NCBI GenBank assembly: GCA_003249785.1
Contig: QKIB01000044.1
Span: 1-47,719, forward strand
Source: Acholeplasmatales bacterium
Lineage (GTDB): Bacteria; Bacillota_I; Bacilli_A; Acholeplasmatales; Acholeplasmataceae
DNA length: 47,719 nucleotides
Reading direction: 5' to 3'
Below, in pieces: positions 11,251 to 40,572 of this stretch (position 1 is the stretch's first letter; each line of letters begins with the position of its first letter). The position numbers were made by a program, and so were the translations under genes. Under the pieces are notes generated by a model that was not told the DNA's origin, searched no databases, and saw only the letters and a list, made by a program, of their open reading frames with translations.

Positions 11251-11255
11251 ATGAT

Positions 11256-11344
11256 TGATCACTACGGGGAGCTCAATGCTGAGAGGACGAAAGTCGACCC
11301 GCGAACCTGATCTGGATGATACCAGCGGAGGGATAGGCGATATG
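11256..11344 (+). ncRNA. TPP (thiamine pyrophosphate) riboswitch
   Basis: The aptamer is recognisable from GGGGAGCTC, CTGAGAGGAC, the highly conserved AACCTGATCTGGAT, and ATACCAGCGGAGGGA. These are the two helical arms of a THI element in the right order. It lies just downstream of a strong promoter and ahead of a thiamine transporter. Bound TPP should favour the terminator at 11361-11393 and shut off thiT. The exact P1 ends are uncertain by a few bases. Confidence 0.95.
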
Positions 11345-11360
11345 AATACATATAACCTTC

Positions 11361-11412: not shown

Positions 11413-11982
11413 ATGCAAAAGAGTTTGGAATTGAAAAAACTCACAATGAGTAGTGCTTTTGTTGCTATTGCATTCGCAATAGAACTAGTTATTCGTTTTG
11501 TTTTACCGATGTTCAATATGCCATTTGGCGGGAACTTTATCGGATTATCGATGTTGCCACTTGTTTTAATCGGTTATTTTTACGGATTGAAATATGGCAT
11601 CATTTCTGGATTCGTTTATGGGGTGTTTGAAATCATACTAGCACCGAGTGGTTACATTGTGGGATGGTCATTCTTACTAGATTATCTTCTAGGATTTACC
11701 GCATATGGACTTACAGGATTTTTTATGGGTAAATTAGGTAGCATTAAATGGACAATCTTAGGTATAGGACTAGCAGGATTTGTTAGATATTTATCTGTAT
11801 CGCTTGCTGGTGTTATCTTTTGGAGTACAACCGCAGATTTCAATGCTTGGGTTTATTCCTTCATTACGTATAATTTGGGATATACATTTTCTACAACTGT
11901 GATTACTATACTGATTGCTGTACTTATTCGCAAGCGTATGGTGGATCTCAATGCGAATTATTTAGGTCTCAAAACAGCTTAG
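11413..11982 (+). CDS. thiT: Thiamine ECF transporter S component ThiT
   Basis: This is the substrate-binding membrane subunit of an energy-coupling-factor transporter that imports thiamine with the shared EcfA/A'/T module, which is not in this window. It has 189 aa and six hydrophobic segments. It resembles ThiT, including the N-terminal AFVAIAFAIELVI helix and a GGNFIGLSMLPLVLIGYFYG segment. The TPP riboswitch upstream independently supports thiamine as substrate. AGGAGG precedes the ATG. The 3' end overlaps the convergent recU gene by 14 bp. Confidence 0.93.
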   Translation: MQKSLELKKLTMSSAFVAIAFAIELVIRFVLPMFNMPFGGNFIGLSMLPLVLIGYFYGLKYGIISGFVYGVFEIILAPSGYIVGWSFLLDYLLGFTAYGLTGFFMGKLGSIKWTILGIGLAGFVRYLSVSLAGVIFWSTTADFNAWVYSFITYNLGYTFSTTVITILIAVLIRKRMVDLNANYLGLKTA

Positions 11983-35547: not shown

Positions 35548-35887
35548 GTCAATGCAAGTGATCGAGCCTGCCTAAGCAGGTTAGGAAAGTCCATGCTAGC
35601 ACATCCTGAGATGGATGTAGTGTTTGTGCCTAAGGAAATCATAACTTAGGGTACGTCAAACGTAACGGCGATCAATGGTCTAAGGGAAACTATGATCTAG
35701 ACGTAACGTGCCACAGAAACGAGTTGTTCAGAAATGAACAAATGAAACGCGGTAAACCCCTCAAGCTAGCAACCCAAAATTTGGTAGGGGCACGTATCAA
35801 GACCAAATGAAGTTGAGATACGCTACTTTGTAGAGATAAATGGTCACACCCTAAAAGGGGAACAGAACATGGCTTATGAACATTGAC
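35548..35887 (+). ncRNA. rnpB: RNase P RNA, type B (Bacillus type)
   Basis: Catalytic RNA of RNase P, which matures tRNA 5' ends. The ends pair (GTCAATG at 35548 with CATTGAC at 35881) to form P1. Conserved core pieces appear in order: GGAAAGTCCATGC, CTGAGATGGATGTAGTG, GTGCCTAAGGAAATCATA, GTGCCACAGAAACGAG, AACGCGGTAAACCCC, GGTAGGGGCAC, and the closing ACAGAACATGGCTTATG. The order and the sequence after CTGAGATG match the B. subtilis type B fold. This accounts for the 425-bp gap between rplY and the hydrolase. Confidence 0.97.
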
Positions 35888-36585: not shown

Positions 36586-36605
36586 AAAATCCCATTTGGG
36601 ATTTT
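36586..36605. terminator. Bidirectional terminator, hydrolase / exchanger
   Basis: An 8-bp stem AAAATCCC / GGGATTTT with an ATTT loop lies between A and T runs and serves both convergent genes. Confidence 0.82.
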
Positions 36606-37746: not shown

Positions 37747-37775
37747 ATTGTAGCATATTCGAAGGGTTCATTCAA
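37747..37775 (-). promoter_or_regulatory. Promoter of the exchanger gene
   Basis: On the minus strand TTGAAT (plus 37770-37775), 17-bp spacer, TG-C-TACAAT (hexamer plus 37747-37752). This predicts a leader of about 135 nt. Confidence 0.75.
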
Positions 37776-37820
37776 GTGAATTTAAAGGGATCTTAAATCA
37801 TATGTTCAGAGCATCAATTA

Positions 37821-37849
37821 TTGACTTTTTTAGGTAAAAATAGTATCAT
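37821..37849 (+). promoter_or_regulatory. Promoter of the CNNM gene pair
   Basis: TTGACT (37821-37826), 17-bp spacer, TATCAT (37844-37849). Each hexamer differs from consensus at one position. Confidence 0.85.
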
Positions 37850-37855
37850 ATATCT

Positions 37856-37935
37856 ATCACATCGTGATGGAGGGCATTATAACCGAAATGGAAGACAGCA
37901 GTAGTAGGATCGAAGATCCAACATATCCGAAAAAC
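37856..37935 (+). ncRNA. Riboswitch-like structured leader upstream of CNNM genes (unclassified)
   Basis: About 80 nt between a strong promoter and an intrinsic terminator hold hairpins ATCAC/GTGAT (37856-37868) and GGATC-GAA-GATCC (37907-37919). Between them is a conserved-looking single-stranded stretch containing GGAGGGC, ATAACCG and AGACAGCAG. The layout, aptamer-sized RNA then terminator then Shine-Dalgarno, is that of a transcription-attenuating riboswitch. I could not match it to the M-box, yybP-ykoY, fluoride, NiCo or ydaO consensus. The downstream genes suggest a divalent ion. Confidence 0.45.
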
Positions 37936-37975
37936 AAAGACAACAAATATCATGCTTTTTTTGGTGTCTTTTTTT
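37936..37975 (+). terminator. Leader terminator upstream of the CNNM genes
   Basis: A 12-bp stem with one mismatch (37936-37947 / 37960-37971) has a 12-nt loop followed by four T. It lies about 22 nt before the start codon and precedes AAAGGAGG, so it must be bypassed for expression. Confidence 0.7.
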
Positions 37976-37997
37976 GTTATTTAAAGGAGGATAAATC

Positions 37998-39305
37998 ATG
38001 TTAGTTTCTATCATCATCATGATTGTTCTCATTTTGTTATCTGGAATCTTTGCAGCTTCAGATGTTGCACTTGTTGCCGTCAGTGACAGCAAAATCAGTC
38101 AAGACGCAAGCAAAGGCAATATCAAAGCATTACGAATTCAGAAATTCACAAGTTCTGACAAGTTGTATCTTTCCTCATTACAAATGTTTATCACTTTGAT
38201 TGCACTTGTCAATGGAGCGATTGCAGTAGATACTTTTTCATCAATGGTCAGCACATGGTTCAATCAATCACTCAGTATCCTGAAGCCTCTGGTCGTTGTT
38301 ATATGTGCATTGATTCTTTTGGTTTTCCAAGTCGTCTTTGGTCAGAAAATTCCAAGAAGACTTGCAAACAAGCATTCAGAAAAAATAGCGTATGCAACCA
38401 TTGGGTTTGTTTCTATAATGACAACTATCTTATTCCCAATCGCATGGATTTTGGATGTGGTGTCTAATTTTGTCGGTCGACTATTTGGACTTGTTCCAAA
38501 TGACAGTGAACGTAAAATGACGGAAGAAGAAATCAGAACCATCGTTGAAGCAAGTGGTAAAATCGGGAATATTGATGAAGAAGAAAGCGAAATGATTCAA
38601 AATATCTTTGACTTCAGCGATACAAGCGTTGATGAAATCATGACGCATAGAACTGAAATCTCCGCAATTAATGTGCGGTCGACCAAAGCTCAAGTGTTGG
38701 ATCATATTAAGGATGAAAAATTCACGAGATATCCTGTTTATGAAGGCGATATCGATCATATCATTGGCACACTTCATGTCAAGGATTTATTGAAATATAT
38801 TGATAACAGTGATGAAAAATTTTCACTTAAAACATTAATTAGACCACCCTATTTCATTCCAGATTCTAAGAAAACTAGTGAACTATTTAAAGAAATGCAA
38901 AAACAAAAGAATCATTTGGTTGTTGTTCTTGATGAATATGGCGGAACAGCTGGTATCGTTACGATGGAAGATTTGATTGAAGAAATCGTCGGAAACATTT
39001 TTGATGAATATGATGAAGTTGACGATGAAATCAAGAAAATTGATGATCATACATATGAAATTCAAGGGTTATGCAACATCAATGATGTAGAAGACCAGAT
39101 TCAAGCGGGATTACCTATTGAAGATTATGATACGCTTGGAGGATTTATCTTAGGACAACTTGGACGTTTTCCAAACGATGATGAAGCTATTGAATTCACT
39201 TTTAATGGATTCACATATAAAGTACTCGAAACTGAAGATAAGATTATTTCAAAAGTGCAGGTAACATTACCACAAGAAAACGAAGCATCTTCAGAAGAAG
39301 AATAA
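37998..39305 (+). CDS. CNNM/CorC-family (HlyC-like) transporter, divergent paralogue
   Basis: It has 435 aa: an N-terminal CNNM (DUF21) membrane domain (~1-165), two CBS domains (~185-320: FTRYPVYEGDIDHIIGTLHVKDLL, DEYGGTAGIVTMEDLIEEIVG), a CorC_HlyC domain (~335-420) and an acidic tail. Relatives are Mg2+ (or cobalt) exporters. In the membrane domain several conserved polar residues differ from the neighbouring paralogue. FxSxxE reads FAASD, IGNNIVN reads LIALVN, and GELTPK reads GQKIPR. The ion specificity may therefore be altered. AAAGGAGG precedes the ATG. Confidence 0.88.
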   Translation: MLVSIIIMIVLILLSGIFAASDVALVAVSDSKISQDASKGNIKALRIQKFTSSDKLYLSSLQMFITLIALVNGAIAVDTFSSMVSTWFNQSLSILKPLVVVICALILLVFQVVFGQKIPRRLANKHSEKIAYATIGFVSIMTTILFPIAWILDVVSNFVGRLFGLVPNDSERKMTEEEIRTIVEASGKIGNIDEEESEMIQNIFDFSDTSVDEIMTHRTEISAINVRSTKAQVLDHIKDEKFTRYPVYEGDIDHIIGTLHVKDLLKYIDNSDEKFSLKTLIRPPYFIPDSKKTSELFKEMQKQKNHLVVVLDEYGGTAGIVTMEDLIEEIVGNIFDEYDEVDDEIKKIDDHTYEIQGLCNINDVEDQIQAGLPIEDYDTLGGFILGQLGRFPNDDEAIEFTFNGFTYKVLETEDKIISKVQVTLPQENEASSEEE

Positions 39306-39315
39306 GGAACTATTC

Positions 39316-40572
39316 ATGGATCAATCTGATATTATTACATTAATCATATTACTCATTTTCATCATCCTATCCGCCTTTTTCTCATCAGCAGAGATGGCTT
39401 TTTCCTCTATGAATCCAATCAAAATCAAGCATAGCATCCAAAATGGACACAAACGTGCGCAGCACACTTTGGATTTATCTTTGAAATTTGAAAAACTATT
39501 AACGACCATCTTGATAGGCAATAATATTGTCAACATTGCATCCGCATCAGTTGCAACTGTTTTGTTCGTCAAATATTGGGGCGATCAAGGGGTCATGATC
39601 TCAACCGCTGTCATGACAACACTTGTTTTGATTTTTGGGGAACTGACACCTAAGACTTTAGCAAAGAAAATTCCTGAAAAATATGCGATTGCGATTACAC
39701 CAATTTTGAGATTCTTTATCTTGATTTTGACACCACTTAATTATATTTTCAGTTTTTGGCAAAATCTCTTAAACAGATGGTTCAAATTTGATAAAGCACC
39801 AGCAATCACCGAAGAAGAGTTATTAACCTATGTCAGTGAAGTTCAACAAGAAGGCGGCATCAATGAAAACGAGGGTGAATTAATTCGTAGTGTCATCGAT
39901 TTCGATGATCTTAAAGTAGAAGAAATATTCACACCACGTGTTCAAGTCATCGCTGTTTCTCTCACTGAAGAGATTAAGAAGATTATTCATACATTCAGAC
40001 ATACTGGATACTCCAGATTGCCTGTCTATGAAGAAAATATCGATCACATCGTTGGTGTGATCAATCATAAGGATTTCTATAACTTAGTTGTCTTAGAACA
40101 TGAACCTTTAGAAAACATCATCATGCCTCCGGTTTATGTGACGCAATATATGAAAGTTTCCAATTTGCTCGAACTCTTGCGCACGAACAAATCACATATG
40201 GCGATTGTCAAAGATGAATTTGGTGGTACTTTAGGTGTCGTTTCTATGGAAGACATTTTAGAAGAACTAGTTGGTGATATCTGGGATGAACACGACGAAG
40301 TCATTGAACAGATTGTTCAGATTGATGACAACACTTACCGAATCAAAGGGAATGCAGATCTGGATGATGTGTTTGAAATCCTTGAAATCGATGAAGAATT
40401 GGATTTTGCAACCGTGAACGGTTGGGTCCTCGAAGAATTGGGTAAGATCCCAAACGTTGGGGATGAATTCACTTATGAAAACTTGAAAGTCAGAGTAACT
40501 GCCGCTGATTTGAAAAAAGTGTTAGAAGTTCTGATTGAAGTTATTCCTCAAGTCATTGAAGAAGATTTTTAA
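39316..40572 (+). CDS. CNNM/CorC-family (HlyC-like) Mg2+ transporter, canonical paralogue
   Basis: It has 418 aa with the same order of domains as the preceding gene: a CNNM domain with canonical FFSSAEMAF, IGNNIVN and FGELTPK motifs, a CBS pair (YSRLPVYEENIDHIVG, DEFGGTLGVVSMEDILEELVG) and a CorC_HlyC domain. It probably exports Mg2+ or protects against divalent ions; the older hemolysin label is historical. It begins 10 nt after its paralogue and is followed by a terminator, so the two are one transcript. Confidence 0.9.
   Translation: MDQSDIITLIILLIFIILSAFFSSAEMAFSSMNPIKIKHSIQNGHKRAQHTLDLSLKFEKLLTTILIGNNIVNIASASVATVLFVKYWGDQGVMISTAVMTTLVLIFGELTPKTLAKKIPEKYAIAITPILRFFILILTPLNYIFSFWQNLLNRWFKFDKAPAITEEELLTYVSEVQQEGGINENEGELIRSVIDFDDLKVEEIFTPRVQVIAVSLTEEIKKIIHTFRHTGYSRLPVYEENIDHIVGVINHKDFYNLVVLEHEPLENIIMPPVYVTQYMKVSNLLELLRTNKSHMAIVKDEFGGTLGVVSMEDILEELVGDIWDEHDEVIEQIVQIDDNTYRIKGNADLDDVFEILEIDEELDFATVNGWVLEELGKIPNVGDEFTYENLKVRVTAADLKKVLEVLIEVIPQVIEEDF

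Follow-up and report, generated by a model that had tools for sequence, protein, structure and literature searches.

A conserved leader ORF overlapping cnnm1 in Acholeplasmataceae: candidate leader-peptide attenuation resembling MgtL in its working

In the MgtL leader of Escherichia coli and Salmonella, low Mg2+ favours dissociation of the ribosome at an EPDP sequence, by which transcription termination ahead of mgtA is altered (PMC11282234). The leader YoaL, which overlaps mgpA, has been reported to promote translation of that gene, and CorC (YbeX) to carry an N-terminal ribosome-destabilising sequence, corC expression being increased in high Mg2+ (PMC12421838, citing Chadani 2021). Members of the CNNM/CorB family have been linked to Mg2+ or polyamine export (PMC6711546 and PMC12421838), and in S. 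aureus the loss of the CNNM relative MpfA raises internal Mg2+ (PMC6711546).

The locus described here is a short upstream ORF (uORF) in the leader of a CNNM gene, cnnm1. It is like MgtL/mgtA in that early acidic and proline residues could destabilise the ribosome, and in that premature transcription termination would be controlled ahead of an Mg2+ transport gene (PMC11282234). It is unlike MgtL/mgtA in that the controlled gene is of the exporter type (CNNM) instead of an importer, the terminator is of the intrinsic type instead of Rho-dependent, the leader overlaps the start of the gene, the motif is SSSR-I-DDP and not EPDP, and the expected output is opposite. The likeness is one of working, and common descent is not implied. 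Acidic and proline residues were found in the first codons, whereas no EPDP, no DPDP and no acidic run of at least three residues was found in the window peptide; because the destabilising motif is missing, the uORF is likened to the MgtL type and not classed as a member.

Further likenesses were found with other systems. The YoaL leader of Salmonella and E. coli also overlaps the beginning of a gene for Mg2+ tolerance with a CorC domain (mgpA, yoaE), but the membrane domain of MgpA is TerC and not CNNM, and no terminator is reported in the available text (PMC12421838); the likeness lies in the arrangement. In CorC (YbeX), a destabilising N-terminal coding sequence has been proposed to permit expression only at higher Mg2+ (PMC12421838); there it lies within the protein, whereas here it would lie in a separate upstream ORF. 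The short ORF mgtQ of Salmonella, with acidic Asp2 and Glu5, likewise controls a Mg2+ transporter gene (mgtB) by translation abortion, but it is intergenic, works through a stem-loop that hides a ribosome site, and switches the importer on upon abortion (PMC8092293). The uORFC-13-1 motif of Acholeplasma, a leader ORF candidate from the same bacterial family, is located upstream of aroF, and the available main text of its description contains no CorC, hemolysin or magnesium (PMC8632094). The M-box Mg2+ riboswitch (RF00380) is a leader attenuator at Mg2+ transport genes as well; it was not found by Rfam in the window, was found in 3 of 41 genomes of the family, and in none of the five genus members searched.

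The window is the complete stretch of DNA that was analysed (47,719 nucleotides; contig QKIB01000044.1 of an Acholeplasmatales bacterium). On its plus strand, cnnm1 (37998-39305, 435 aa) is followed by a second such gene, cnnm2 (39316-40572, 418 aa). A CNNM domain, a CBS pair and a CorC_HlyC domain were assigned by Pfam, as in the CNNM/CorB family, and the closest solved sequences to CNNM1 were 7m1u/7m1t and CorC 4hg0. A calcium/sodium antiporter gene is located divergently upstream of the leader and occupies the same place in most relatives. A bidirectional terminator-like hairpin (36586-36605) lies between this gene and a convergent hydrolase gene. The only Rfam matches of the window are both away from the leader: a bacterial class B RNase P RNA (35550-35880, plus strand) and a TPP riboswitch (11255-11350, plus strand). 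The latter scored just over the gathering threshold and precedes an ORF (11413-11982) for a 189-aa membrane protein which, judged by eye only, looks like a thiamine-type transporter.

In the original prediction, the leader had been described as an attenuator before a CNNM gene pair, and this we consider right. The near-consensus promoter named there is present at 37821-37849 (plus strand; 10 of 12 consensus matches) and the site is conserved in aligned relatives, in which the parts TTGACTTTT and GTATnATA are retained. It is of the sigma-70 type, with the -35 element TTGACT at 37821-37826, a 17-nt spacer and the -10 element TATCAT at 37844-37849. Promoter-like sites are not commoner in the region than expected (19 vs. 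22.3 in shuffled sequences). The leader block was conserved in relatives, and both hairpins that had been proposed were present. The first, ATCAC-atc-GTGAT (37856-37868, plus strand), was recognised from sequence and predicted fold. It lies close to where the transcript probably begins, directly 5' of the Shine-Dalgarno sequence of the uORF, and was found in many, not all, relatives. The second, GGATC-gaa-GATCC (37907-37919, plus strand), falls inside codons 7-11 of the uORF; it is probably a by-product of these codons, and it may place an extra constraint on codon choice.

The uORF (37888-38004, plus strand; 38 codons), which had been overlooked, encodes the leader peptide MEDSSSRIEDPTYPKNKDNKYHAFFGVFFCYLKEDKSC. 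The peptide begins with MEDSSSRIEDPTYP and later contains FFGVFFC; the frame runs through the terminator into the start codon of cnnm1, which the stop codon overlaps and which lies in the -1 frame relative to the uORF. A Shine-Dalgarno sequence, GGAGG (37869-37873, plus strand), is located 14 nt from the ATG. A gap of about 11-16 nt was found in nearly all leaders and is conserved across genera; it is unusually long compared with the 2-10 nt of 21 other genes of the window. The strong Shine-Dalgarno sequence that had been predicted for cnnm1 is present within the uORF (37983-37990, plus strand), ahead of the cnnm1 ATG at 37998. An earlier ATG at GGAGG (-131) was rejected as start because its frame and stops are not conserved.

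A conserved short ORF with a ribosome-binding site is thus present in the leader, and comparison of the sequences gives good support to its being a real gene. The nucleotide core conserved in aligned relatives is ATG GAA GAN NNN AGY AGY AGG ATC GAV GAT CCN, preceded by GGAGG. At the peptide level, the N-terminal pattern consists of acidic residues at positions 2-3, a Ser-rich part and R-[IV]-[DE]-D-P. Codons 12-23 stay open in the uORF frame despite a highly variable sequence: stops were found there in 0 of 33 distinct leaders, compared with 12 and 22 leaders in the other frames. Substitutions were most conservative in the uORF frame, both upon random relocation of substitutions (z 5.6 vs. 3.4 and 3.1) and upon permutation of columns (p 0.01 vs. 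0.27 and 0.19). Pairwise differences in codons 1-14 were about twice as frequent at the third position (1121) as at the first and second (605 and 525). Since many of the changes are Asp/Glu exchanges in codons 3 and 9, the raw synonymous/non-synonymous ratio is unremarkable by itself. Relatedness among the leader sequences is disregarded in these tests.

Among close relatives, no variation was seen in Ser5, Arg7 or Pro11, Ser5 and Arg7 being as fixed as the acidic residues; codon 7 is AGG in 26 of 26 leaders and CGG in leader L086. The C-terminal two thirds of the peptide vary freely, and the length ranges from about 20 to 42 residues across versions. Most versions have acidic residues at positions 2-3, and many have DP or EP near position 10. 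No entry of Pfam or NCBIfam matched the peptide. Control by serine codons was rejected because residue 4 is variable and other genera do not retain the serine run.

A degenerate DNA pattern of the uORF core was scanned over 84,980 genomes, resulting in 45 loci. In 33 of these, cnnm1 follows; the records are labelled Acholeplasmataceae, Acholeplasma, Peloplasma, Tenericutes, Mycoplasmatota or Bacillota. Of the remaining loci, e.g. MEEEWSRIDDPVRLYLKEIG, most are embedded in unrelated, longer frames, and cnnm1 follows none of them. No match to the uORF was found in viral sequences. A profile of the peptide, run through 296 genomes of the class, recovered family members and one genome of the sister family (G040; E 4e-6). 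The peptide of this sister-family leader (L040), MKDSSCRISDDTYPDQIRSNDGAFLYVFF, keeps the pattern MKDSSCRISDDTYP with different codons (AGA, ATA, TCA, GAC) and has no GGATC/GATCC hairpin; therefore, selection acts on the peptide. On contig C15 of this genome, the match to cnnm1 is split over two frames interrupted by stops (L040/L161/L165), either because the gene is broken or through an error of assembly; the leader before it retains the peptide pattern. In another genome (G007, leader L010), the cnnm1 match falls into two unequal pieces, the N-terminal part with 47% identity and the rest with 66%.

Diverged versions of the uORF were found in other genera: MEEHSQRTADIF, MEEYSHRKTEKN, MDDTSSGQRTIEEPLDW, MEDNSCGQRTIDEPGED, MEDSSSGQRTTLSDDPHEG, MDESSNGQRYQIVNW, MDEGSSCMDTVPEY, MEDGSSCSSRVPEDL, MEDSNPRSSKGSVPIG, MEDSHTSNKEEPGP, MEISEPSSIPTSV, MEVSQRIDDPTYP, MDDSDSIKLFKIDK and MENDDLTENLNN, the last of which was read by eye. 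Further versions from the sister family are MEESNRLIEDPT and MEDFPSYRCAKK. The DP motif is missing from the distant versions MEEHSQRTADIF and MEDFPSYRCAKK; Ser5 and Arg7 do not occur in all genera, and the acidic residues at 2-3 are mostly retained. By our own tally, no readable cnnm1 leader of the Acholeplasmataceae lacks the uORF (14 genera, about 54 genomes). Three genera of the sister family have it too, and some others of that family are without it (g21; CNNMs starting with MELP). It is always located directly upstream of cnnm1, mostly in the -1 frame relation, with its stop within a few bases of the cnnm1 start codon.

The intrinsic terminator of the original prediction held as a plus-strand hairpin with following T's, supported by pairing in relatives; it is, however, weak and A+U-rich. 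The feature extends over 37936-37975 within the uORF, and the hairpin (37936-37971) has the arms AAAGACA-a-CAAA and TTTG-g-TGTCTTT. It was not listed by the pattern scan because its loop exceeds the limit of that scan. Hardly any variation was found in the 3' arm and T-tract, GGTGTCTTTTTTTG, in contrast to the variable 27-nt spacer before them. Pairing of this spacer to the 3' arm was stronger than in shuffled sequences (mean -8.35 vs. -5.34 kcal/mol over 33 distinct leaders; z of the mean -8.6), and its fold energy was below the mean of its own dinucleotide shuffles in 33 of 33 leaders. The 5' arm is usually AAAGAY (codons 17-18); where this is lost (L003, L012, L014, L017, L022, L026 and L086), GAYGC (codons 22-23) or a shifted AAGACA substitutes for it. 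The hairpin is retained in 32 of 33 close relatives, the exception being L023, whose predicted hairpin does not include the 3' arm. Terminator arms thus lie inside or just after the uORF, except in several genera with short uORFs of about 20 codons, in which the T-tract is missing and the overlapping uORF is kept. The overlap with cnnm1 is therefore the shared feature and the terminator a second layer.

The N-termini of the CNNM proteins were compared as well. In CNNM1 proteins preceded by the uORF, the first 12 residues contain on average 0.09 acidic residues (none in 51 of 56), compared with 1.33 in other CNNMs from a sample of the order and class (at least one in 44 of 48); for this difference the Mann-Whitney p is 8e-17, with relatedness left out of account, starts set by rule and paralogues among the second group. 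Starts of other families such as MDPEPS, MEFEPG, MDVDPES and MEDPSPS (L185, L186, L188 and L200), rich in acidic residues and proline, resemble the start of MgtL. The contrast is suggestive, not proof, of an acidic module having moved from the CNNM protein to the leader ORF. Alternatively, acidic residues at the outside N-terminus of ordinary CNNMs may have a topological role.

On the ORF, its conservation at the peptide level, the terminator hairpin and the overlap, which the sequences support, we base a scheme in which translation would control termination and re-initiation. The ribosome would start at 37888 and translate M-E-D-S-S-S-R-I-E-D-P at an early stage, when the exit tunnel holds almost no nascent chain. 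Continued translation would carry it behind RNA polymerase across the 5' arm of the terminator and block the hairpin; at the stop codon, which overlaps the start of cnnm1, it could re-initiate, and the exporter would be on. If the acidic, Pro-containing nascent chain causes the ribosome to fall off, the 5' arm (codons 17-18) would be free, the terminator would form, coupling would be lost and the exporter would be off. Loss of the ribosome at codons 3-11 would leave the 5' arm (37936 onwards) uncovered, since with codon 11 in the P site the leading edge is estimated near 37933 from the generally known ribosome footprint. The exporter of Mg2+ (or another polycation) would be permitted only when Mg2+ is ample, by the sensor principle of MgtL with the opposite outcome. 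We judge it an even question whether cnnm1-cnnm2 are controlled in this way, by MgtL-like drop-off at the acidic leader peptide acting through the terminator with Mg2+ as signal; for Mg2+ sensing through destabilisation by the peptide, which we infer, the chances are likewise about equal.

Several observations argue for drop-off governed by Mg2+: the frame open in all 33 leaders, the peptide kept in the sister family, the terminator conserved by pairing, the fixed position of the uORF directly 5' of cnnm1 with the stop usually at its start codon, acidic residues at 2-3 often followed by DP or EP, and the near absence of acidic N-terminal residues from CNNM1 proteins with a uORF, unlike other CNNMs. 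The M-box is absent from the genus members searched. Precedents exist in the EPDP of MgtL (PMC11282234) and in the reported cases of the CorC N-terminus and YoaL (PMC12421838). On the other hand, the acidic runs are short and interrupted by SSSR, and two acidic residues alone are described as insufficient (PMC11282234). A pure acidity model does not need invariant Ser5 and Arg7, the DP motif is missing from the two distant versions named above, and the Shine-Dalgarno gap is unusually long. CNNM1 is a putative Mg2+ exporter, and the CNNM relative PaeA exports polyamines (PMC12421838).

The same attenuator could instead respond to another signal, such as a polyamine, another cation or a ribosome-targeting inhibitor, with SSSR-I-DDP-xYP serving as an arrest or pausing peptide; pausing of the ribosome at about codons 13-14 would keep the arm of the terminator covered, so that the exporter is switched on. 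The invariance of Ser5, Arg7 and Pro11 in close relatives, more specific than acidity requires, and the export of polyamines by PaeA point in this direction. The conserved part, however, comprises just about 11-14 residues, which is short for a classical arrest peptide, and Ser5 and Arg7 are not shared by all genera whereas the acidic residues at 2-3 mostly are. We hold this for unlikely, though still worth weighing.

Somewhat less probable still is that the uORF encodes a functional small protein or couples translation constitutively to cnnm1 without sensing. Such a role would agree with the universal overlap with the cnnm1 start and the conserved N-terminus, but the C-terminal two thirds are free in sequence and length, and the terminator inside the uORF is kept by selection in most genera, which suggests regulation.

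The original prediction saw here an ion-responsive RNA, possibly of an undescribed riboswitch class. The ion signal is plausible; a ligand-binding riboswitch found no support. The proposed Infernal comparison with Rfam, at gathering threshold over the window and permissively over 37750-38050, gave no plausible match to a known class at the leader. The search for covarying pairs in relatives confirmed conservation of the leader and yielded no covarying aptamer helix: in a consensus structure of 33 leaders, two-sided compensatory change was found in no helix. The GGATC/GATCC stem has one-sided changes only, with two breaks that replace Ile by Leu or Phe, conservative changes at the protein level. 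The segments thought to be conserved joining regions of an aptamer are codons, and the whole leader RNA folds like its shuffles (z 0.09). Strong nucleotide conservation, including the AGG of codon 7, the GAT of codon 10 and the GGATC/GATCC hairpin, and a terminator downstream of the conserved block would suit an RNA that binds an ion or metabolite directly, but the block is a reading frame and the peptide pattern persists in L040, where the hairpin is missing, and in other genera whose RNA is very different. A new riboswitch class is therefore very improbable. Because neither Rfam nor covariation supports an aptamer and the peptide pattern outlives nucleotides and hairpin, the ribosome translating the leader peptide is the more likely sensor. 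Least probable of all is programmed slippage on the two T-runs of the uORF that would fuse the acidic peptide to CNNM1, which lies in the suitable -1 frame: it is largely refuted by a stop in the cnnm1 frame between T-tract and cnnm1 ATG in 30 of 33 leaders, and several genera have no T-tract.

By the tests performed, the system is not a riboswitch; it would be a case of leader-peptide attenuation, similar to MgtL in its working. As far as the searched literature shows, this real and conserved leader ORF is undescribed. The case illustrates that a conserved short ORF can be mistaken for an orphan riboswitch. More tentatively, with perhaps one chance in a few, the acidic, proline-containing N-terminus of many bacterial CNNM exporters may be a Mg2+ gauge that aborts translation at low Mg2+ and that was moved in Acholeplasmataceae to an overlapping, terminator-controlling ORF; in that case, feedback sensing through ribosome stability would be widespread for the export of ions, and not for import alone. 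If the drop-off scheme at cnnm1 is true, it would be an export-side mirror of MgtL, in which ribosome stability sets the level of an ion exporter. It would permit direct tests of Mg2+ sensing in Mollicutes and of nascent-chain destabilisation as a Mg2+ gauge beyond enterobacteria, in a system kept across the family, including small-genome members without a detectable M-box.
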